A stretch of DNA of 64,000 nucleotides from Candidatus Omnitrophota bacterium (GTDB taxonomy: Bacteria; Omnitrophota; Omnitrophia; Omnitrophales; JACROU01). Below, one piece after another: positions 32,766-45,446 of the stretch. The position numbers and the translations under genes were made by a program. How positions within the stretch are numbered: the first letter of the stretch is position 1; each line of letters starts with the position of its first letter. The notes under the pieces were generated by a model. The model had not been told where the DNA came from and searched no databases. It saw nothing but the letters and a program-made list of their open reading frames with translations. The stretch is from assembly GCA_029261035.1 (NCBI GenBank), contig JAJDCD010000023.1:496001-560000 (forward strand). The letters are read 5' to 3'.

Positions 32766-35700
32766 ATGAGATTATTTTCTCGATTTAAAAAGGGACTCAG
32801 TACCGGTCTGTTATTTTTCTTTATAGCGAGCCAGGGTGTTTTTCTGCCAGATGGCTTTGCTCTTCCTATGCTGCTTCAGCCTATTCAGGTTTCTCGTGGA
32901 ATCATAGAAACAAGACATGAGGGCTCTCAAGGAGAAGTTGTTATTCTTGAAGATGCTCATGGGTATATTGATGCGCAGCGATCCATACGATCTATTTTGG
33001 ATCAATTAGAAAACAAATATCAATTTAAACACTTCCTCATTGAAGGCGCCACAGACCCTCTTGAGAGTCTACTCATCGAAAGCTATCCCGACAGCGAGAA
33101 AAAGAATCAGTATTTAACTTTTGAGCTTAACAGAGGGTCTCTTAACGGTGCTGAAGTAGCAGCGTTAAATAAACAACAAGGAACTATTTACTCAGGATTA
33201 GAGGATAAGCAATATTACGAGGATAATTTAAAAGCTTATTTGGAGGTAAAGAAAAGTAAACTTGTACAAGCAGCAAAAGATCATTTAGAAACAGAGAAGC
33301 TTTTATTAAAAGAAGAAAAAAGGCAGGTTTATTCTCAGCAATTATTTGATTTAGAACAGAATGAATCTCTTTATCAAGATAGAAAAAATTTGTTTATTTG
33401 GCTTATGTATTTAAAGCAGTTTTCTGAGTTTGGAACTTATAAAGAGTTAAATGCCTTGAAGGTATGGTTTGAAAACCAAAAGAAAATTTCAAAAGATGCA
33501 CAGTTTTTAATTATTGGATTGGAGAAACGACTGCAAGATATTGATTTGACCCATGCTGAGAAAATTCAGTGGGGAAGCCTAAAACAAGAATGGAGTAACG
33601 AACTTATTAATGAAAGACAGTATGTGCAAGGGATGAAAGAGATTTTAGGGTCCAATCGACTCACGGAAGAAGAAAAATCATTGATGACCCAACTTCCTCA
33701 ACTTAACATTCAAATTTTAACGGATTTAGAAACACTGGTATCCCGTATCAAAGCTAGATTGGCGAAATCTCCTGAAGAAAAAACATTACTGGAGAAGAGT
33801 CATAATTTAAAACTTAAGGAAGCAGCTCTTAATTTAAAGTTAACTCGTAATCAATGGCAAGAGCTTCAGCAGTTGGGGATAGATTTGCCCCAAGTAATTA
33901 ATAATTATTATCTCCTCGCAATCCAAAGAGAAAAGAATTTCTTAAAAGAAATCACAGAACAATTAAAGCAAGGACAAAAGAAAGTAGTTGTTCATGTAGG
34001 AGGTTTTCACACCGAAGGACTAATCAATCCTTTATTGAAACAAAACCTCACACTCAGAGTTATTAAACCCAGGTTTGAACTTCAAGCTAAAAGCGAAGCC
34101 TACGACAAGAGAATAGATCAGGCAGCATTTTATTTTTCTACACTTAAAGAACCATCCAGATTAGGGACTCCTTTACTAAGAACACAAATCGAAGCAAGTT
34201 TTCTTGCTCGCATGTTAGAAAAGGTTCCGCCACAAGAATGGGGATTCTCTTTAATTCAAAGGTCTTCTCAAGGTGGGGTAGTTAACTCTTCAGAATTGTT
34301 AGCATTTGTAGCTGAGATTATTAATTGGTCGAAAGTTGAAGAAATGCAAAGAGAACTTGGAGAGTTTCAGAAAGAAAATTTGAAAGAGGAAGGTCTGGTA
34401 GAAGCGAGGTCGCTAGGAGCAAATGAAGCTTATAGAAGTTCTAACTTGCCATGGAAGGAAAAAGAGTACGCGTTCTCTGGATTGCCTCAGAGCTTGGGGT
34501 TGAGTTGGGGTGATTTAGAAAACAGTTATCCAACGTTAGTTAAAATTTTAGTGAGAAAAAGAAATGCAATGGAAGCATTTATTTCTTATGCAGCAAATGT
34601 AAAAGGCCAGCGTAATTTAGGGAGAATAGAAGATTTGTTTGAAGCTATAGCTCAGCTTAGAGATATTGAATATGTAGGAGTGACTTTTGAGGCACTTAAA
34701 GATTTAGCAGAGGTAGAGAGTTCAGGAGCCGGTTACAGTGATGTTGTCTTAGATGAAGAGTTATTGAAAAGAATTGTCGAAGTTAATGGAATGTATGCTT
34801 CGGAAGCTTTGGGTGCTCTCAGGGTAATGGGCGAATCGATTCAGGGTGGATGGGGGAGTGAAGCCGTTTTTGATAAGGAATTATGGTATAAAATTATCGA
34901 AGTTAACGAAGGGTATGTGGAGAAAGCTTCAGATTATGCTCAATCTTTAAAAAATAAAGTACAGGCTGGAAGCCTAAGTAAAACTAAATACAAAGAGCTT
35001 TTTTTAGAATTCCTCAATCATGGCAAAGAGAATATAGCGAGAACATTCAGGGTTCTTCCACTCCTAAGAGGAGCAGATTTTGATGTTGAATTTTTGAAAG
35101 AAATAGTAGCACACATGAAAGAAAAAACAGTGGATGTATTCGGGAAAATAATAGTTTTAGGGGAAGGAGTTCCAGAAGGAGAACTTAGAAAAGAAGAAAT
35201 TCTAGAGATAGTTAGAAGAGCAGAGGACATAGGCGTAGATCAGGTTTTGTTGCAGCTAGATAAATTGAAGGAAGAATGGATAAGCGAGACATTAGATGAT
35301 GCTCAACCTTTGGAAAGTTCTGAAGAGGAGGAAAAGTGGTTAGATCTCGTTAAAGTTGAAGCGCAATCGCTTGGAGCAGAGGAAGTGTATGAGGAATTCT
35401 TTTTGGAAGAAAAAGTGGGACTTAGTTGGGAGGAGTTAGAAAGTGATTATGAAGATTTGGTAGAAGTTTTAAATGAAGAAGAGATGGCTATGGAAGCCTT
35501 TGCTGCTTTTACTGAGAATATGGAGGATGAAAGGGAATTGGACAAAATAGAGTCTTTGTTTAGCAGTATTTTTCAAAAAAAAAGGGTTATTTCAAGGGCG
35601 GCTTTTTCTTCTTTAGAACAATTGTTTCTTGCAGTAGCGAATGATGAAATTAAGAAAGAGTTGATCGACTTAGAGTTTTTGGAAAGCATCAGTAGTGCGA

Positions 35701-38693
35701 GTGTTAAATATCCTTATTTAGTTTTTGATGGTCTATCACTTTTAGCTAAAAAAATAACCAGTGGTAAAGTGCCTGAAAAGTTATGGGATACAAATTTATT
35801 GTTTACAGCAACCATTTCAGGAGAATCACAAGTGTCAACAATCATGAATTCCCTTTCTGAAATTGGTGAAGGAGTTATTTCGGGAACGATAGCAGAAGAA
35901 GTTCTTAGAGTAGAATTTTTAGTAACTTTGATAGAAGCCTATAAGACTCATGCAGCCGTTCTATTGGGTGCTATTAGAAATTTGGGAATCTTGATTCAGA
36001 GAGATGCGATTGATAAAGAGATCTTTAGTGAGTATTTCTTTAGAAAGCTTTCTGGCTATATAGATGATATTTCTATTTCTGATTTTTCCGGCGCTATATA
36101 TCGGATGATGTTAGAAGGGGGCGGTAAAGAGCTATTTAATTTAGAATTTTTATTAGAAATTATGGAAATAGCAAAAAAGTCGACAGTAAACATTTATAGA
36201 AAAATATGGAAAGTGCGCAACAACATTCAGGTCGGAGAACTGAAAAAAAGCCAGATATTAGAAGTTGTAAGAAGGATTGATGATATTGGAGAAGAGAATG
36301 TTCTCAGCCAACTAAAAAAACTTATTGCGGAGTGGAAAAGAGAGGCGGAAGAAGTCAGTCCTCCTTCAAAAAATACTGAAGAAGAGGAATGGTTAGATCG
36401 TGCTGAGGTTGAAGCAAAATCTCTTGGGGCTGAGAACTGGCATGATGTTTTATTAAATTTAAATATAAGTGAGAAAGAGTTTCGGGACCTATTCCCCGAC
36501 TTGTTAGCCGTTGTTGCATCTCACCCCTATCTCTTAGATATTTTTTTAACAGAGATAAATCAATTTGACCCTCCTTATAAAAACTTTGTTATGAAGTTTT
36601 TTGATGGGATGCTAGGAACGATTATTTATATTTCAAACTTTTTAGGAGTTTTGTTTGGTATAGAGCGTATGAAGAAAGAAAGTAAGTTTGTCGAAGTGTT
36701 TAAAAAGAACATGAACTTAAAGATTTTAAAAACTATTTCTCGAACAAGGAAAATCAATGAAAAAGATATTAGAGAAATAGAAATAATTTTTCAAATCATC
36801 GTTTCATTAGAAAAAGCTCTTAGATTAGATCTAAGAGATCATGCCAGAAATACTTTTGATTCTATCAAGGAAATAAACATAGGTATAACGGAAGGAGTTA
36901 TAAGTGAAGAAGTGCTGGATATAGAATCCTTAAAGAGAATCGTTCTGACATCAGGAGATAAGAGTTTATTAACATTTGCCATGGGTGCTCTGAGAGCATT
37001 AGCAGCAGGAGTGAGGGCAGGGAAAATAAGCGAAGAATTATTAAGAGTAGAATTTTTTGAAACCATCGCTAAGACAGCAGGTTCTGAAGATATGTGGAAC
37101 GTTTTTCGCTCTCTTGTTTCGTTAGCAAGTGGAGTTACAGAAGGAAAGATAAATGAAGAGATGATGAATGTGGATTTATTAAAATTAATTTCGAAAGGCA
37201 GTCAGTCTCAGACATCATCCCTTTTTATCCTTCTCGGAGGATTGGGCTCACAAATCGAGTTCGATAAAAGAAGTAAAGAATTGTTGAATGTAGAGTTGCT
37301 AAAAGGAATTGCTAAAGTGAGTGGTTCAAATATAGTGCTTGCTTATAAAAGTCTTGAAAGTTTAGTAAGAGAATTTAGGGAAGGGTTGGTTGGTCCGGAA
37401 ATGTTTAATATGGAATTATTTGAAATTATCTCGAAGTCTAGTGGGATTTGGACAGAAAGTGCTTTTAATTCTTTTCATAATTTAGTGCTCAAGGGTACAC
37501 GTTCTGGAGTTGTAAAATATGAAGTATTAAAAATTCTTGCTGAGTCCAGCGGGAAAGAGATGTGGCAAGCCTTTGATGCTTTGGCAGAATTAGGAGCGGC
37601 AGTGACATCTGGACAAGTAAATGAAGAAGTTTTGGATGTTGAGTTGTTAAAAATAGTTGCTAAGAAATGGAGAGTTTATCGAGCTTTGAAAGGATTAGGC
37701 AAAGACGTTTTAGATATTGAAGTGTTGAAAAGAATTGCTGAGATAGATGGTGGAACTATCGTTGGTGACTCTGCAGCGTCAGGCTTTCATAAACTGAGAG
37801 ATTTAATAGTATGGGAAAAAGAGGGTAGAGTGTCCAAAGAAGTTTTGGATGTCGAGTTACTAAAAAGAATTATCAAAGCAAGTGGCCCTTCGACATGGGA
37901 TGCTCTTCCTGCATTAGGGTTCTTAGGAGCTGGAGTGAAGACAGGAAAGATTAAAAGAGAATTGTTAAGTGCAGAACTTTTTGAAGCCATGTCTAAGTCG
38001 AGTGGATCTGAAATGTGGGCTCCTCTGCGGACGCTCAAAGAATTAGCTGCAGGAGTAATTGCAGGCAATGTAGAGCAGGAAATTTTGGACGTGGAGTTCT
38101 TCGAAAGAATTTCTACATTAAGCGGTGAAGGGCTAACTCAAACATTTAAAGTGCTAAGTGAAATAGGGGCCGATGTAAGGCTTGGACAAGCGAATAGAGA
38201 ATCCTTGAATGTGAAGTTCTTGATTACAGTGGCTGAGCAAATGAAAGGAAAAACAGCAGAAGCATTTGCAGTAATAAAAGGCTTGGCAAAAACAACTCCA
38301 GATGGCCCCTTTAGAAAAAACGAGATCTTAGATGTTGTAAAAAAAACGGATCAAATAGGGATAGATGAAGTGTTGAACCAGTTAGACCAATTGAAAGATG
38401 TTTGGGAGAGAAGCTCTGAAGAAGAAAGAGCTCCTCCTGAGAAAGAGCAAGAAGATGAGTGGTTAGATCGTGCTGAGGTTGAAGCAAAATCTCTTGGAGC
38501 TAAGGATTGGGGCAAAGTATGGGTGGAGTTAAATCTTGGGAAAAAAGAATTGCATAATTTATACCCGGAGTTATTTTTAACTTTAAATTCTAGGCCTTTT
38601 GCCATTAAAGTTTTTCTGGAAATGATGAATCGAGATAGTGTTCAGACTAAAAATAAAATTTCAAAGATAGTTGGAAACTGGTTTGTAATATGA
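32766..38693 (+). CDS. Giant secreted helical-repeat protein, N-terminal part (ends at in-frame TGA)
   Basis: 1975 residues. Signal peptide about 1-33 (cut after FALP). Residues 50-460 form a domain with ILEDAHGY near 58, LIEGATD near 94, YSGLEDKQYYEDN near 138 and HVGGFHTEG near 417. These are spaced like a ChaN/EreA/TraB-type metal or heme-binding fold; this is my inference. From about 560 on there are helical repeats of about 40 residues, each built on EVLD-ELLK-I-K-SG----A--ALR-LG-GV--GK. Module boundaries with W-D---VEA-SLGA follow. The TGA at 38691-38693 is in frame with the next gene. Confidence 0.8.
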   Translation: MRLFSRFKKGLSTGLLFFFIASQGVFLPDGFALPMLLQPIQVSRGIIETRHEGSQGEVVILEDAHGYIDAQRSIRSILDQLENKYQFKHFLIEGATDPLESLLIESYPDSEKKNQYLTFELNRGSLNGAEVAALNKQQGTIYSGLEDKQYYEDNLKAYLEVKKSKLVQAAKDHLETEKLLLKEEKRQVYSQQLFDLEQNESLYQDRKNLFIWLMYLKQFSEFGTYKELNALKVWFENQKKISKDAQFLIIGLEKRLQDIDLTHAEKIQWGSLKQEWSNELINERQYVQGMKEILGSNRLTEEEKSLMTQLPQLNIQILTDLETLVSRIKARLAKSPEEKTLLEKSHNLKLKEAALNLKLTRNQWQELQQLGIDLPQVINNYYLLAIQREKNFLKEITEQLKQGQKKVVVHVGGFHTEGLINPLLKQNLTLRVIKPRFELQAKSEAYDKRIDQAAFYFSTLKEPSRLGTPLLRTQIEASFLARMLEKVPPQEWGFSLIQRSSQGGVVNSSELLAFVAEIINWSKVEEMQRELGEFQKENLKEEGLVEARSLGANEAYRSSNLPWKEKEYAFSGLPQSLGLSWGDLENSYPTLVKILVRKRNAMEAFISYAANVKGQRNLGRIEDLFEAIAQLRDIEYVGVTFEALKDLAEVESSGAGYSDVVLDEELLKRIVEVNGMYASEALGALRVMGESIQGGWGSEAVFDKELWYKIIEVNEGYVEKASDYAQSLKNKVQAGSLSKTKYKELFLEFLNHGKENIARTFRVLPLLRGADFDVEFLKEIVAHMKEKTVDVFGKIIVLGEGVPEGELRKEEILEIVRRAEDIGVDQVLLQLDKLKEEWISETLDDAQPLESSEEEEKWLDLVKVEAQSLGAEEVYEEFFLEEKVGLSWEELESDYEDLVEVLNEEEMAMEAFAAFTENMEDERELDKIESLFSSIFQKKRVISRAAFSSLEQLFLAVANDEIKKELIDLEFLESISSASVKYPYLVFDGLSLLAKKITSGKVPEKLWDTNLLFTATISGESQVSTIMNSLSEIGEGVISGTIAEEVLRVEFLVTLIEAYKTHAAVLLGAIRNLGILIQRDAIDKEIFSEYFFRKLSGYIDDISISDFSGAIYRMMLEGGGKELFNLEFLLEIMEIAKKSTVNIYRKIWKVRNNIQVGELKKSQILEVVRRIDDIGEENVLSQLKKLIAEWKREAEEVSPPSKNTEEEEWLDRAEVEAKSLGAENWHDVLLNLNISEKEFRDLFPDLLAVVASHPYLLDIFLTEINQFDPPYKNFVMKFFDGMLGTIIYISNFLGVLFGIERMKKESKFVEVFKKNMNLKILKTISRTRKINEKDIREIEIIFQIIVSLEKALRLDLRDHARNTFDSIKEINIGITEGVISEEVLDIESLKRIVLTSGDKSLLTFAMGALRALAAGVRAGKISEELLRVEFFETIAKTAGSEDMWNVFRSLVSLASGVTEGKINEEMMNVDLLKLISKGSQSQTSSLFILLGGLGSQIEFDKRSKELLNVELLKGIAKVSGSNIVLAYKSLESLVREFREGLVGPEMFNMELFEIISKSSGIWTESAFNSFHNLVLKGTRSGVVKYEVLKILAESSGKEMWQAFDALAELGAAVTSGQVNEEVLDVELLKIVAKKWRVYRALKGLGKDVLDIEVLKRIAEIDGGTIVGDSAASGFHKLRDLIVWEKEGRVSKEVLDVELLKRIIKASGPSTWDALPALGFLGAGVKTGKIKRELLSAELFEAMSKSSGSEMWAPLRTLKELAAGVIAGNVEQEILDVEFFERISTLSGEGLTQTFKVLSEIGADVRLGQANRESLNVKFLITVAEQMKGKTAEAFAVIKGLAKTTPDGPFRKNEILDVVKKTDQIGIDEVLNQLDQLKDVWERSSEEERAPPEKEQEDEWLDRAEVEAKSLGAKDWGKVWVELNLGKKELHNLYPELFLTLNSRPFAIKVFLEMMNRDSVQTKNKISKIVGNWFVI
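38691..38693 (+). other. In-frame TGA splitting the giant gene
   Basis: Codon 1976 of a 4227-codon frame (32766-45446). The first ATG after it is at 38751; the 19 codons between are open in the same frame and read NLNEEGEKRI..., continuing the repeat module homologous to the one near 36770 (KDIREIEIIF). No good ribosome site precedes 38751, and the downstream part would lack a signal peptide. Confidence 0.9.
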
Positions 38694-38750
38694 AATTTAA
38701 ATGAAGAAGGTGAAAAGAGAATTAGAGAGGTAGAATCTATATTTAAAAAC

Positions 38751-41700
38751 ATGATTCGTATAGTCTCTCCGCAGCAAAGGGAAGTTGATATAGAAAATTC
38801 ATTTCGGATTTTATGGTTTTTAGCGAAGGGTGTAAGAGAAGGAAGCATTAGTAGGGAAGTGTTAGATGTAGAGGTGTTAAAAGGAATTGCAAAGTCAAAT
38901 GGCGTCTGGATCGAGACATCCTTTGAGGCTCTAAGAAAGTTAGGAGGTGGAGTGAAGGAGGGAAGTGTAAGAGAGGAAGTGATGAATTTAGAGTTATTAA
39001 AGAAAGTAGTTCAATTAGGTGGAAGAGAGACATATGTTCATCTGTTTTCTCTCACAGATCTAGGGATTGGGGTACAGCGTGAATTAGTTTCAGAAGAAGT
39101 GTTGGATTTAGACCTATTAATTAAGATTGTTGAGGCAAGTGGAGAGAAGACGGGAGAAGCCATTAATGCTCTCAGAATATTAGGAGAAGCGGTGAAAGTT
39201 GGAAAGGTGAGCGATTCTGTTTTGAGTGGGGAATACTTAAAAAAAATTGTTGATATAAGCGGAGGGGAGGTGAAAAGCATTTTTGATGTTCTTAGAAAAT
39301 TAGGAGAAGCAGTGAACGCCGGTAAATTAAAAGAAGAGGTATTAAAAATAGAACTTTTTGAAATGCTCGCTAAGCAGAGCGGGAGTCAATCAAAATATGC
39401 TTTTCGTAGGCTTAAAGAGTTGGTGGAGAGGCTGAGTGAGGAAGTGTTGGGCGAAGAAGTTTTGGATGTAGAGCTCCTTGAGATAATGGCGAAGTCAGGA
39501 GGGGAAGACTTAGGTGATGCATTCTGGCAACTGAGGCTCTTGGCGGAAGATAAGGGAATTTTTACAGAAAAAATATTAAATGTGGAGTTTTTAAAGCGCA
39601 TTGCTGAGCCAAGTGGAGCAGATGTAGGAAAGGTTTTTGAGCTTTTAAGAAGATTAGGAGAGCAAGTGAGCTCTGGAAGTGTGCCAAAAGAACTATTAGA
39701 TGTGGAATTCTTCACAGAAGTAGTTGAGCAAATGAATGAGAAAACATATGAAGTATTAAAAAAGATTCAAGGTCTTGGAGAGGCTTTGTCAGTAGGAGTA
39801 TTCAGAAAAGAAGAAGTGTTAGAAATAGTCAGAAGAACAGACCAAATAGGAATAGATCAAACTTTGAAGTTATTAGATCAACTTAAGGAATCATGGGCAA
39901 GAGATTTTGAAGTAGCAAAACAGCCGCTTGATGAAATAGAAGAAGATTGGTTGGATCGAACTGAGATGAATGCTCAATCTCTTGGGGTTAGAAAAATTTA
40001 TGACAAATCTGACTTAGGAAAGCGTTTGACAATGTCATGGGAAGACTTTCAGCGGGAATATGCGGCCTTGATTTTAGCTCTTAAGGCTGAAGCTTTTCAT
40101 CTGCGGAATCTTTTTTCTCTTTATGCAGCCCATGTCAATGATAGAGAATCACTGAAAAGTTTGGAGCGTATTGTAGAAAAGATTAAGGATAAGGATGAGT
40201 TTTTTCAAGGGCCAATCCATTTGTTTGTTTCTAAACTGGAAAAGGCGGTTAAGGATAAAAAGATAAATGGTTCATTTATACAACCTCCATTTCTTGAGAG
40301 AATTTTAAATGCTGTTACCGATGCTTCAAATATTGCATTTCAAGATTTAACGGGATTGGCTTCGGGAGTTAGTGATGGAAAAATGAATCCTGAAGTATTG
40401 GATGTTGACCTATTAATTAAAATTGCTGTATTGAATGGAGAAGAAGCGTTTGCCGCTTACAATGCACTGGGTGAAGTTGGAAAGGGAATCCAGTTGGGGA
40501 AAATTAAAGCCAGTATTTTAAAAACAGATTTTTTTGAAAAGCTTTCAAAAATTAAATTACCTGGAGGAACATCTATTTATTTTACTCTTTCTAAAATAGC
40601 CAGAGGAATTTCAAAAGATAAATTCAGTAATGAGTTAATCAGTGTGGACTTATTTGAAGAAATCTTTAAGCTGACGGGCGATAAAAACCATGAGGCTTTT
40701 AATAATCTAGGGACTTATTTGGATAATGTGATAGAGATCCCTCAAAGCTCTGTCACGCTTGAGCTATTGATGACTGTTGTTGAAGGGAGCGGTGAAGGAG
40801 TGACTAACGCTTTTAAGGATTTGGAAAAAATAAGTTTTTCTGTTAGACAAAATCAATTGCCTCTGGAAGTGATTTCCCCAGAATTTTTAATTGAGGTTTT
40901 CCAGCTATCTAAAGAAAGGTCAGGAGATATTTTTGATCAACTGCTCACTTTTTCTCAATATACACAGTTTTCATTCGATCCCGAAGAGTATTTGAGCGTT
41001 CTAAGAAAAGCAGAAGATTTGGGTATGGATGCTGTATTGAAACAGTTGGATTATTTGATTCAAGAATGGATTGACCAAGAAGAAGAGGATGACGTACCTG
41101 AGGTTCCGGGAGAAGATGGGGAATGGCTAAGGGAAGAGGTGGATGCAAGGTCTTTGGGTGCAAAGTATCGTTATATTGCGGAAGGTCTGTCTGAAAAATT
41201 AAATTTGAGTTGGGAAGAGTTTGAGTCTTTGTATCCTCGGTGGACTGATCTTTTAAATGATAACACCTTTGCTTTTGATGCTTTTGGGAGTTATATGCAT
41301 CTAAAAGAAATGGTGTACCCTTTAGGAGATGTTCAGGAAGTTTTTCTTAAAATTGAAGAGATGGCTTCCGAAGAATCTGAAGATGCATTTAGAGAATTAA
41401 GTAATTTGTTTAAAAGCAGAGGGAATAGGAGTATCAATAAAAAGCTGCTGACGCCCGAGCTTTTAATGGAAATTACTGAAATAGCGGGTAAAGATGTTGT
41501 AGCTGCTTTCAAGGCAATGGAACATATACAGATGATTATTTGGTATGGACGAAAAATAAAAAGTGAGCATTTTCCTATGGAACTATTTAGAGCCGTTGGA
41601 CAAAGTTCGGGTGTGAATAAAAGCAGAGATTTTGGTGTTTTAGGAAACATTGCAAGAAGTTATTTTTGGGATGAAATAGGAAAAGAGATTTTGGATGAAG

Positions 41701-44700
41701 ACCTACTAACTCAATTAGCTGTAATGAGCCGTGAAAATATATCCAATGCCTATGGAGTGCTTCTTGTTTTAGCTAGTCGAGTTAAAGTTGGTAAAATTAA
41801 AGAAGAGATTTTGGACCTCGAGTTTTTAGAACAAATAGCTTTTATGATGAAAAAAGATACATACCGAGCTTTGTTGAAACTAGAAAAATTAGGCGCGACT
41901 AATATAAAATCTGATTTCGATAAGGAAGCCATTTTAAATATTGTCCGAAAGGTCGAATACATTGGAGTAAATCCCGTTCTGAAACAATTGGACTATTTAA
42001 TAGAAGTATGGGCATCAAATGAAGCGGAAGATAAATTTATTCCAAATGCTGATCAAGAGGAGTGGCTACGGGAAGAGGTGAGAGCGAAGTCTTTGGGGCT
42101 GCAAGAACAATACGAAAAGGCAGGATTGCCAGAAAAGTTAGGGGTGAGTTGGAATGAGTTATGGAGGTATGGATATTTATTTAAAACATTGAATAGAACA
42201 GAAGAAGCTATGGATGCGTTTATTGCTTATGTAGAATTCATGGGAGATAAGATTCAATTAGATGAGGTTGAAAGTTTGTTTTCAACTATTAATATATTCG
42301 ACCGTCGGTCTGGTAGAAATGGCTTTTTTGAGGCTTTGACAGAATTAATAGATGGTGTCAATCAAGGGGAAGTTAGCGAAGAAGTTGTGGATTTGAATAT
42401 TTTTAAAAAGATTGTTGGCTTAAATTCCGAGAATTCAAAAAATGCTATCGTGGCTCTTAGAGAGCTTGGTGAAGGCGTGAAAGCTGGAGAAATTGGGGTG
42501 GAAGCGTTGGATTTACAGCTTATAAGAAACATAATAGATTTAAGTGATGAGAATGCAGCGGTTGCATTCAAAGCACTTAAAGAACTAGGGGCTGGAGTAA
42601 ATAATGGGACAATAAGGTCAGAAGTATTGAATATAAGCTTTTTTGAAAGTATTTTTGAGTTAAAAGGAGAGTATTCGAAACCTATTTTATATGCTCTTAC
42701 AGCGATTGCTGCTGCCGTCAGAAATGAAAAAGCAAAAGAAGAATTATTAGAGTTAGTTTTTTTTGAAAAAATTAATGAATTGGCAGAATCTAATCATGCA
42801 TCTGCTTTTCATGATCTTGGCAATTTGGTTTTTAAAGTTGTTGAAGAAGAAGCTGTGGATGGGATTTTGGATAAAGATTTACTGGTTTATATCGCTAAAT
42901 TTAATAAGGAAGGAATGGGAGATGTTTTCGACGCTTTAGGGGAGTTAGCTGTTGGGGTAAAAGAGGAAAAGGTTCCGGCGAAGTTTTTGGATTTAGATTT
43001 TTTGAAAGAATTTATTTCTTCGAGTGCTTTTGGTTTAAATGGACCATTGCTTTCTCTTATTGATTTAGGTGAGCGGTTAAAGGAAGGGAAGGCTTCGGAA
43101 GAGTTTTTTAGTCTGGATTTTATAAATCAAGTTGCTAAGGTGAGTGGTATTTATACGGGAGAGGCCATTGTTTTTCTTACTCTTTTGGAAGAAGCTGTTA
43201 AAGCTGGAAAGGCAAAAGAAGAAGTTTTAACATTAGATTTGATTGAAATGGTAATTATTTTTAACGAAAGAAAAGCCAATTTTGTTTTTTACGAACTTTG
43301 GGATTTAATTAAAGGTGTAATGGAGAAAGGTCTTTCTGTAAAACTTTTGGATTTAGAGTTTTTAAAGACAATACTAGAGTTTAGCAAAGGTTCTTCTGAG
43401 GGTAGTCTTAAGAGGCTTAAAGAATTAGGGGGTGCTGTTAAAGAGGGTGAGGCGCCACAGGAAGTATTAGATTTAGAACTTTTAAAGACAATAGCAAAAA
43501 ACAGTAAAACAGATACCCCTAGCGCACTAATACAGTTAAGGAGTTTAGGGAAAGAGTTAAGAGAAGGTGTTGAGGTAGGCGTGTTAAGTGAAGAATTTTT
43601 AGAAGTAGGGTTTTTTAAAAAAGTTACAAACATTGCAGAAAAAAATACAAGTAAAGCTTTCTATTTATTTAATAATTTTGGTGAAGCGATAAGATTGAGT
43701 GAAGCAAAAGCAGAGTTGTTGGATCTAGGATTGTTAGAAAAAATTTTAAAGATGAGTGGAGAAAATGCAGGTTCTGTGCTTTCAGCTTTAACAATATTGG
43801 TTTCAGGCGTTGCAAGTCGAAAAATAAGACATGAGGTTTTGGATCTTAATTTATTGAAAGCTATAGCGAATAAAAGTGGTGTCGGAATGGAAAAAGCTAT
43901 TAAAGAACTTGGAAAGTTAGGAAAAGGAATTATTTCAGGTGAGATAGTTCCAAAAGTATTAGATATGGACTTATTAATCCAGATTGTAAAATCAAGCGGT
44001 CAAGAGGCTGGGGATGTGTTTAATATCCTCAGTGATATGGGCTCTACCCCCAAAAGGGGGGTGAAGCATATAGATGATTTGGATGTAGAGTTATTGAAAA
44101 AAATATCAAAGATAAGTGGGGCTAGAACAAAAGGAGTGTTTGAAGTTTTTAAGGAGTTGAGTTTGGGAGCCAATCTTAATAATGAAGCAAAAGAATTAAT
44201 AAAAATAAGTTTTTTTGAATTTTTGGTGTCGCTTCCAGTAGAAAACCCATATCTTTTTATTCATTCCATAAAAACATTAATCAGCTCAGCGTTAAGAGAG
44301 AAATCAACAAGAAGGATTTTGGATGAAAGTTTTTTAATAGAAGTATCCGAGCAAATGAGTGAAAAACCAGCAGAATTCTTTCGTGTGTTAATCGAATTGG
44401 GAAAAGTGGCGCAAGAAGGAGGTTTTCGAAAAAATGAGATATTAGATATAGTAAGGAGAGTGGATGAAATAGGAATAGATAAAGTTTTGAGACAATTAGA
44501 ACAGTTAGGGGATGTGTGGGAGAATGAGATTGGAGGAGTTGTTTCGAATGATGATAGACCGGAAGATGAATGGTTAGATAGACGTGAGATAGATGCGAAG
44601 TCTTTGGGAGCTTTGCGACAGGTTCAGAGTAAAGCGCCAATTGAAACTTTATCTTTTGAATTATTGAAACAGAATTTCAATAATGAGTCAGATTTGAGAG

Positions 44701-45446
44701 CGTTTTTGGAAATGTATTTTAAGACGCGTATGAGCGATGAGCAAAGTTTGGGTTTTTGGAAGTTGTATCAGTCTATAAAAAGTATTCCGGAAGGATTGCT
44801 TAGGGCGATAGAGCTTGTGGGGTTAGTATTGGAATCAGAAGGTTTGGGTGTGGAAGAAGTAGCTGTAGGTTTAGAAGATGTTTTGATTGCTGAGGAAAAT
44901 GTGGATTATGTGATGGACTTAACAAGCTTTATGGAATTAAGAAGAAAGTTACCGGAATTTGTAGATGAGCTTAAAACTCGGGATCAGATTTGGGTTTTGT
45001 ATGAAGGGGAAGAAAGAGAGGAACGAACGGAGGTTGCGAAGCTGCAAAGAAGACATTCTGATATTTCGGGTAATACTCAAATCCGGTTTATTCAAAGAGA
45101 TAAACAACTGAAACATTTAAGGGGTAGGGGAAGTCGTATCAAGGTCGGTGTAATGCGGGACATCATTTGGAATTCTGTGAAAGAGATTTTGCCAGAGGAT
45201 TATGTGACGGCCAGTTATTATGAAGAAGACGGAAAGTTAAAAGAGGGAATGGCTCCATTGGCATTGAAGCTAGTGATCGCTCGCGCGAAAGCGATGGAGG
45301 CAGGGTCGGTTGTAAGCCCAGAATGGATTGTGGAAAATTTAGGAGTGCAAGGAGTTCGATTTGACGGGATGCATATGGTGATTGATTTGGTGCAAGTGCT
45401 GCAGAAGTCGATTGATGCGCATCGTATGATTGCTCAAGCTGCGTAG
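38751..45446 (+). CDS. Giant helical-repeat protein, C-terminal part
   Basis: 2231 residues if started at ATG 38751; the reading frame is the same as the gene before it. It is almost wholly helical repeats of about 40 residues (HEAT/ARM-like) grouped in modules. Each module ends FRK-EIL-IVRR-D-IGID-VL-QL and is followed by EWLR/DR-E--A-SLGA (positions near 39945, 41118, 42058, 44565). The C-terminal 270 residues after the last boundary form a different, conserved-looking domain (DYVMDLTSF, VKLRGRGSRIKVGV-like, FDGMHMVID). Read alone it has no signal peptide, which favours it being the continuation of the secreted first part. Confidence 0.75.
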   Translation: MIRIVSPQQREVDIENSFRILWFLAKGVREGSISREVLDVEVLKGIAKSNGVWIETSFEALRKLGGGVKEGSVREEVMNLELLKKVVQLGGRETYVHLFSLTDLGIGVQRELVSEEVLDLDLLIKIVEASGEKTGEAINALRILGEAVKVGKVSDSVLSGEYLKKIVDISGGEVKSIFDVLRKLGEAVNAGKLKEEVLKIELFEMLAKQSGSQSKYAFRRLKELVERLSEEVLGEEVLDVELLEIMAKSGGEDLGDAFWQLRLLAEDKGIFTEKILNVEFLKRIAEPSGADVGKVFELLRRLGEQVSSGSVPKELLDVEFFTEVVEQMNEKTYEVLKKIQGLGEALSVGVFRKEEVLEIVRRTDQIGIDQTLKLLDQLKESWARDFEVAKQPLDEIEEDWLDRTEMNAQSLGVRKIYDKSDLGKRLTMSWEDFQREYAALILALKAEAFHLRNLFSLYAAHVNDRESLKSLERIVEKIKDKDEFFQGPIHLFVSKLEKAVKDKKINGSFIQPPFLERILNAVTDASNIAFQDLTGLASGVSDGKMNPEVLDVDLLIKIAVLNGEEAFAAYNALGEVGKGIQLGKIKASILKTDFFEKLSKIKLPGGTSIYFTLSKIARGISKDKFSNELISVDLFEEIFKLTGDKNHEAFNNLGTYLDNVIEIPQSSVTLELLMTVVEGSGEGVTNAFKDLEKISFSVRQNQLPLEVISPEFLIEVFQLSKERSGDIFDQLLTFSQYTQFSFDPEEYLSVLRKAEDLGMDAVLKQLDYLIQEWIDQEEEDDVPEVPGEDGEWLREEVDARSLGAKYRYIAEGLSEKLNLSWEEFESLYPRWTDLLNDNTFAFDAFGSYMHLKEMVYPLGDVQEVFLKIEEMASEESEDAFRELSNLFKSRGNRSINKKLLTPELLMEITEIAGKDVVAAFKAMEHIQMIIWYGRKIKSEHFPMELFRAVGQSSGVNKSRDFGVLGNIARSYFWDEIGKEILDEDLLTQLAVMSRENISNAYGVLLVLASRVKVGKIKEEILDLEFLEQIAFMMKKDTYRALLKLEKLGATNIKSDFDKEAILNIVRKVEYIGVNPVLKQLDYLIEVWASNEAEDKFIPNADQEEWLREEVRAKSLGLQEQYEKAGLPEKLGVSWNELWRYGYLFKTLNRTEEAMDAFIAYVEFMGDKIQLDEVESLFSTINIFDRRSGRNGFFEALTELIDGVNQGEVSEEVVDLNIFKKIVGLNSENSKNAIVALRELGEGVKAGEIGVEALDLQLIRNIIDLSDENAAVAFKALKELGAGVNNGTIRSEVLNISFFESIFELKGEYSKPILYALTAIAAAVRNEKAKEELLELVFFEKINELAESNHASAFHDLGNLVFKVVEEEAVDGILDKDLLVYIAKFNKEGMGDVFDALGELAVGVKEEKVPAKFLDLDFLKEFISSSAFGLNGPLLSLIDLGERLKEGKASEEFFSLDFINQVAKVSGIYTGEAIVFLTLLEEAVKAGKAKEEVLTLDLIEMVIIFNERKANFVFYELWDLIKGVMEKGLSVKLLDLEFLKTILEFSKGSSEGSLKRLKELGGAVKEGEAPQEVLDLELLKTIAKNSKTDTPSALIQLRSLGKELREGVEVGVLSEEFLEVGFFKKVTNIAEKNTSKAFYLFNNFGEAIRLSEAKAELLDLGLLEKILKMSGENAGSVLSALTILVSGVASRKIRHEVLDLNLLKAIANKSGVGMEKAIKELGKLGKGIISGEIVPKVLDMDLLIQIVKSSGQEAGDVFNILSDMGSTPKRGVKHIDDLDVELLKKISKISGARTKGVFEVFKELSLGANLNNEAKELIKISFFEFLVSLPVENPYLFIHSIKTLISSALREKSTRRILDESFLIEVSEQMSEKPAEFFRVLIELGKVAQEGGFRKNEILDIVRRVDEIGIDKVLRQLEQLGDVWENEIGGVVSNDDRPEDEWLDRREIDAKSLGALRQVQSKAPIETLSFELLKQNFNNESDLRAFLEMYFKTRMSDEQSLGFWKLYQSIKSIPEGLLRAIELVGLVLESEGLGVEEVAVGLEDVLIAEENVDYVMDLTSFMELRRKLPEFVDELKTRDQIWVLYEGEEREERTEVAKLQRRHSDISGNTQIRFIQRDKQLKHLRGRGSRIKVGVMRDIIWNSVKEILPEDYVTASYYEEDGKLKEGMAPLALKLVIARAKAMEAGSVVSPEWIVENLGVQGVRFDGMHMVIDLVQVLQKSIDAHRMIAQAA

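Follow-up and report, generated by a model that had tools for sequence, protein, structure and literature searches.

Giant open reading frames (ORFs) of more than 20 kb occur in several classes of Omnitrophota, and one of them encodes 39,678 amino acids (aa) (Seymour et al. 2023, PMC10066038). In the portion of that report considered here, the giants are characterized by few annotated domains, poor conservation and a predicted extracellular location, and are regarded as possible adhesins or predation proteins. The gene analyzed in this study occupies positions 32766-45443 of the plus strand in a 64,000-nucleotide stretch of a Candidatus Omnitrophota genome (contig JAJDCD010000023.1, positions 496,001 to 560,000), referred to below as the window. 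It resembles the published giants in its phylum, in the huge size of its frame, in the scarcity of known domains and in its predicted extracellular location, but with both halves joined it is 12.7 kb long, below the threshold of 20 kb, and its frame is broken by one stop, TGA at 38691-38693. Two of the features discussed below, a head domain of the TIKI fold and a C-terminal Ala-Ala or Ser-Ala end, -(A/S)A, are not mentioned in the same portion of that report.

The head domain recalls the TIKI/EreA-ChaN superfamily, whose known motif of two His and two acidic residues is represented by H85-E113 in Bcr135 and H3902-E3930 in VvRRSP (PMC6254334). As for the interruption, prokaryotic in-frame stops can be short-lived, yet tolerated by leakage (Belinky et al. 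2021, PMC7918605); a lone stop in the otherwise intact window gene is consistent with a short-lived lesion of this kind.

The interrupted giant gene

The window belongs to a contig of 630 kb in a 2.7-Mb genome estimated to be 94.8% complete, which was examined as targeted stretches. In frame 2, no stop interrupts the stretch from 32730 up to the TGA; the frame reopens at 38694 and ends with TAG at 45444-45446, the TGA being the sole in-frame stop within 32766-45443. Counted from the ATG at 32766, the gene has 4,225 sense codons, that is, 1,975 aa before the TGA and 2,250 codons past it. The preliminary description of this DNA had reported two same-frame parts separated by this single TGA, and its coordinates and frame are as given here. 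Within 309 kb of the host genome, no other two very long gene frames were seen to adjoin in phase with a single stop between them.

It is very likely that 32766-45443 constitutes one giant gene with a single interrupting stop, because there is an unbroken paralogue with both of its ends, because the upstream half violates a rule for the C-termini of large frames, and because the stop interrupts a module internally. The nearest paralogue, encoded in the same genome on the minus strand of G000:C24 at approximately 62.5-82 kb, is an unbroken 6,470-aa frame of 19.4 kb. In the window gene, aa 11-585 align with the start of this paralogue (41% identity, E 7e-118) and aa 3803-4226 with its end (34% identity, E 2e-65). 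Many large frames of the genome share the modules, and all are unbroken among the matches listed.

The two halves are complementary. The upstream half (32766-38693) carries a signal-peptide-like N-terminus MRLFSRFKKGLSTGLLFFFIASQGVFLPDGFA (32766-32867), with a hydrophobicity peak of 1.82 at aa 13 and similar starts in the paralogues, followed by the head domain (32850-34139) and repeat modules. The downstream half (38694-45446) contains further modules, the tail domain (44172-45443, ending in RMIAQAA) and the TAG stop. Besides the window, the tail domain was found only in G001:C89 and in the 6,470-aa paralogue, where it is 34-38% identical, and each time it closes a giant frame.

The C-terminus itself follows a rule in this genome. 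The -(A/S)A end is present in all 16 other large frames examined, the downstream half counted among them, versus 5 of 112 smaller frames (Fisher test, 2e-16); examples are the window gene (45432-45443) and the frames L017, L018, L019, L021, L102-L103 and L105-L110. The downstream half ends in AQAA, in agreement with the rule, and the upstream half ends in FVI, which breaks it. Outside this genome, the same end was observed in 18 of 28 head-domain frames of other Omnitrophota, and several of the remaining frames are visibly broken. The transfer-messenger RNA (tmRNA) tag of the host genome likewise ends in ALPLAA.

The modules are built of an 'xAxSLG' boundary followed by two helices. In the solenoid module array (34401-44612), '-A[RKQ]SLG-' boundaries are found at 34401, 35358, 36411, 38481, 39969, 41142, 42081 and 44592, and the TGA lies within the first sub-domain of the module starting at 38481. 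In the alignment of 33 module starts, it falls in an insert separating an upstream '..F..Y..' helix from a downstream helix, RIREVESIF (38718-38744), which is situated between the TGA and the first possible ATG and has the counterparts 'RIKEVETMF', 'KIKKVEELF', 'RLEEIESLF' and others in the paralogues. An insert at this site is not unusual, since other modules (L017_2782 and W_1210) have inserts at the same place. The alignment thus bears out the earlier proposal that module homology continues past the TGA.

Origin of the stop codon

The TGA is probably a real and recent nonsense mutation. The 6.75 kb past it carries no further stop. When neutral substitution was simulated over this region, the median number of changes before a new in-frame stop appeared was 14, and 95% of runs had acquired one by 62 changes, which corresponds to 0.9% divergence; in simulated decay the bound falls to 0.3-0.4% if indels are counted. 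Either the TGA is recent or unreal, or the downstream part remains in use. No sister genome with sequence past the TGA was found, the genome being alone in its genus among the genomes listed. Approximately 6% of single substitutions in this gene create a stop and, as a broken gene, the case is ordinary, 4,226 codons being a large mutational target.

We suggest that the gene of a giant, probably secreted, Omnitrophota family with a head-solenoid-tail plan may have been interrupted by a substitution that arose by chance in the population sampled, too young for decay. The cell should then export a truncated product comprising the head domain and the modules encoded upstream of 38691; the remainder would be made hardly or not at all, apart from the low basal leakage possible at any UGA. 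Several points weigh against a recent nonsense mutation of this kind. The TGA is known from the assembled consensus alone, so that an error in the consensus is possible; in-frame stops can be tolerated via leakage (PMC7918605), and by analogy some full-length product may be formed; and the absence of decoding genes described below was read from a genome estimated to be 94.8% complete.

The first of these points leads to the alternative that survives best, namely, that the TGA is not present in the organism and stems from an error of base calling or of the consensus, or from a minority allele that entered the assembled sequence. We consider this rather unlikely, with perhaps a minor share of the probability. 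The lack of a second lesion over 6.75 kb would be explained by it, and isolated stops or frame breaks occur in other family members from draft genomes, which hints at an error background in such long genes. On the other hand, the difference is of the substitution type, the sequence around it in the 630-kb contig is unique and not a homopolymer, and no other such break was seen in 309 kb of the genome. The idea that two paralogues were mis-joined at a repeat is rejected, since the only match in the genome to a 201-base query around the TGA is the query region itself, and there is therefore no repeat at which an assembler could err.

The base rate of such breaks was taken from 57 head-domain frames in Omnitrophota stretches, 167,253 codons in all. 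They include a second clear case, L148 (G027:C61), which encodes 5,259 aa, followed by TAA (locus position ~3136) and at least 1,044 further codons in phase; this TAA falls in what we take, from its sequence, to be an AAA+ type domain. L143 ends in a frame break, L133 in masked bases and L112 in one or the other, and one more head domain, in G031:C25, contains a TAA. Breaks that recur at a low rate, with differing stop codons, fit mutation or draft-genome error rather than a TGA-specific program.

Functional readthrough, in which ribosomes would regularly pass the TGA and yield mostly a truncated product and, to a lesser extent, one of 4,226 residues, is improbable. The downstream frame is intact and bears the family tail, and TGA is the leakiest bacterial stop. 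Suppression of TGA, discussed in PMC7918605, also counts in favor of readthrough, but neither dedicated decoding machinery nor a suitable context was detected. A search of the genome for selenocysteine tRNA (tRNA-Sec) gave only matches below the cut-off, which proved to be ordinary tRNAs, those for Ser and Leu among them, and a search of the genome and its relatives for SelB gave only sub-cut-off matches to other GTPases; the selenoprotein idea was dropped on these grounds. None of the 40 tRNAs found in the genome has a UCA anticodon. The sole tRNA-Trp has the anticodon CCA and, as checked by hand, a 5-bp anticodon stem with C27-G43, together with A9 and G24. It is therefore not of the UGA-reading kind (PMC13092985), for which a 4-bp stem would be expected, and this candidate was rejected. 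The release factor 2 (RF2) gene prfB is present, and TGA terminates other genes of the window as well. RNA downstream of the TGA folds no better than shuffled sequences (z = 0.57). No stop was seen inside any module match listed for the host genome or G001, among which there was no orthologue close enough for the codon itself to be aligned, and the parallel case, L148, has TAA. Thus, of the three origins named in the preliminary description, a recent nonsense mutation and an assembly or consensus error stand, while programmed readthrough finds no signal in machinery, context or structure, nor a stop in the paralogous modules compared. A separate selenoprotein lead came from G003, where a neighboring MsrA relative had been flagged for a TGA; it has a plain Cys in its active site, and no internal TGA was seen in it.

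The weakest alternative, gene fission, would make the downstream part a separate working gene with an internal start, for example ATG 38751 or GTG 38952, and is very improbable. The first ATG, GTG or TTG past the TGA is the ATG at 38751-38753, 19 codons on. Its anti-Shine-Dalgarno (anti-SD) pairing is -4.2 kcal/mol, compared with -6 to -10 for most window genes, and a purine-rich stretch is about 19 bases away; the pairing at 32766, where the giant gene itself starts, is weak as well (-3.5). A restart here would begin inside a conserved helix, cutting this region of the module. The in-frame GTG at 38952-38954 is preceded by TTAGGAGGTGGA (38942-38954), a good Shine-Dalgarno match that makes it the best-looking internal start and favors fission; the match is probably incidental, because its GGAGGT is accounted for by the Leu-Gly-Gly-Gly (L-G-G-G) codons of the repeat. 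In a hydrophobicity scan, neither ATG 38751 nor GTG 38952 is followed by a signal-peptide-like or hydrophobic leader. Promoter-like matches lie slightly above those of shuffles, which also favors fission, but no convincing promoter or terminator was found at the TGA on the plus strand, and elsewhere the tail domain occurs only as the end of giant frames. These results agree with the earlier claims that no canonical start precedes ATG 38751, that its Shine-Dalgarno sequence is poor, and that the downstream part lacks a signal peptide. Homologues ending at the TGA, with a supported start and a signal peptide near 38751, were looked for as well and were not found.

Head domain and solenoid modules

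The AlphaFold2 model of the head domain (predicted local distance difference test, pLDDT, 91) has a TIKI/EreA-ChaN fold and an acid-His-Glu-His motif, and the domain is by likeness a putative hydrolase. Foldseek hits obtained with the head domain by itself were weak (best E 0.08). After re-alignment of structures, the top seven were all members of the TIKI superfamily (Z 7.9-10.5), for instance, ChaN (2g5g, Z 10.5), EreC (6xcq, 8.8), a Bcr135-type protein (2qgm, 8.6) and HopBA1 (5t09, 8.4). The motif D-x-H, E, H corresponds to Asp63-x-His65, Glu93 and His415 in the window gene; two His and one Glu are invariant in 33 sequences, and Asp is conserved in at least 90% of them. The His-to-Glu spacing of 28 is the same as in Bcr135 and VvRRSP. 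Unlike the known superfamily members, this head domain has a long helical insertion between the motif halves and tops giant solenoid proteins, and the window member matches no Pfam family. Sequence searches of Pfam, NCBIfam and the Protein Data Bank (PDB) with both halves and with the head domain gave nothing significant for the window gene.

All 47 genomes of the order have the head domain, as do 143 of the 285 Omnitrophota genomes sampled. In 57 of 57 frames it begins at aa 34-140, just past the signal peptide. Its relatives from named genomes all belong to Candidatus Omnitrophota; the first alignment (A1) was too divergent for scanning, and a scan with a closer set (A2) retrieved distant Omnitrophota only. 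The longest head-domain frame, of 35,113 aa (G018:C37, near 183600-184934), ranks among the longest bacterial frames.

The modules are predicted to form alpha-alpha repeats. In the region immediately upstream of the TGA (37800-38690), which covers the end of one helical-repeat solenoid and the start of the next module, most of the initial ~205 aa have a pLDDT above 90. The nearest structural look-alikes of the modules are designed helical repeats, whereas no natural family is matched significantly (best E 0.056), and none of the Pfam repeat models scored above the cut-off against them.

The intact type of protein would be an exported alpha-solenoid scaffold or adhesin with an N-terminal TIKI-type hydrolase domain, which probably makes contact, at the cell surface, with other cells or with polymers belonging to them. 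Further, we tentatively propose that the Omnitrophota giants may form one exported class, built of a signal peptide, a TIKI-type hydrolase head, a variable helical solenoid and an Ala-Ala or Ser-Ala tail acting as a sorting or quality-control signal; the window gene would then represent this plan in a cut form, from which readthrough might still give some full-length product with its tail. This possibility is less secure than the recent nonsense origin of the TGA. The main value of the case is that checking the interrupted gene exposed rules common to the giants, a recognizable hydrolase-fold head with an active-site motif and a fixed C-terminal end, which could serve as handles for assays and help to recognize giants that are truncated or mis-assembled in draft genomes.

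Finally, three contig ends of the host genome, at the end of L111 (the end of G000:C16), in L020 (the whole of contig C9) and at the end of L019 (G000:C3), share a repeat ending in ...GVREGKIDEKLLEIEFLTEIAKA. Therefore, the genome likely encodes another giant, probably of more than 6,000 aa, which is broken by assembly and not by a stop codon.

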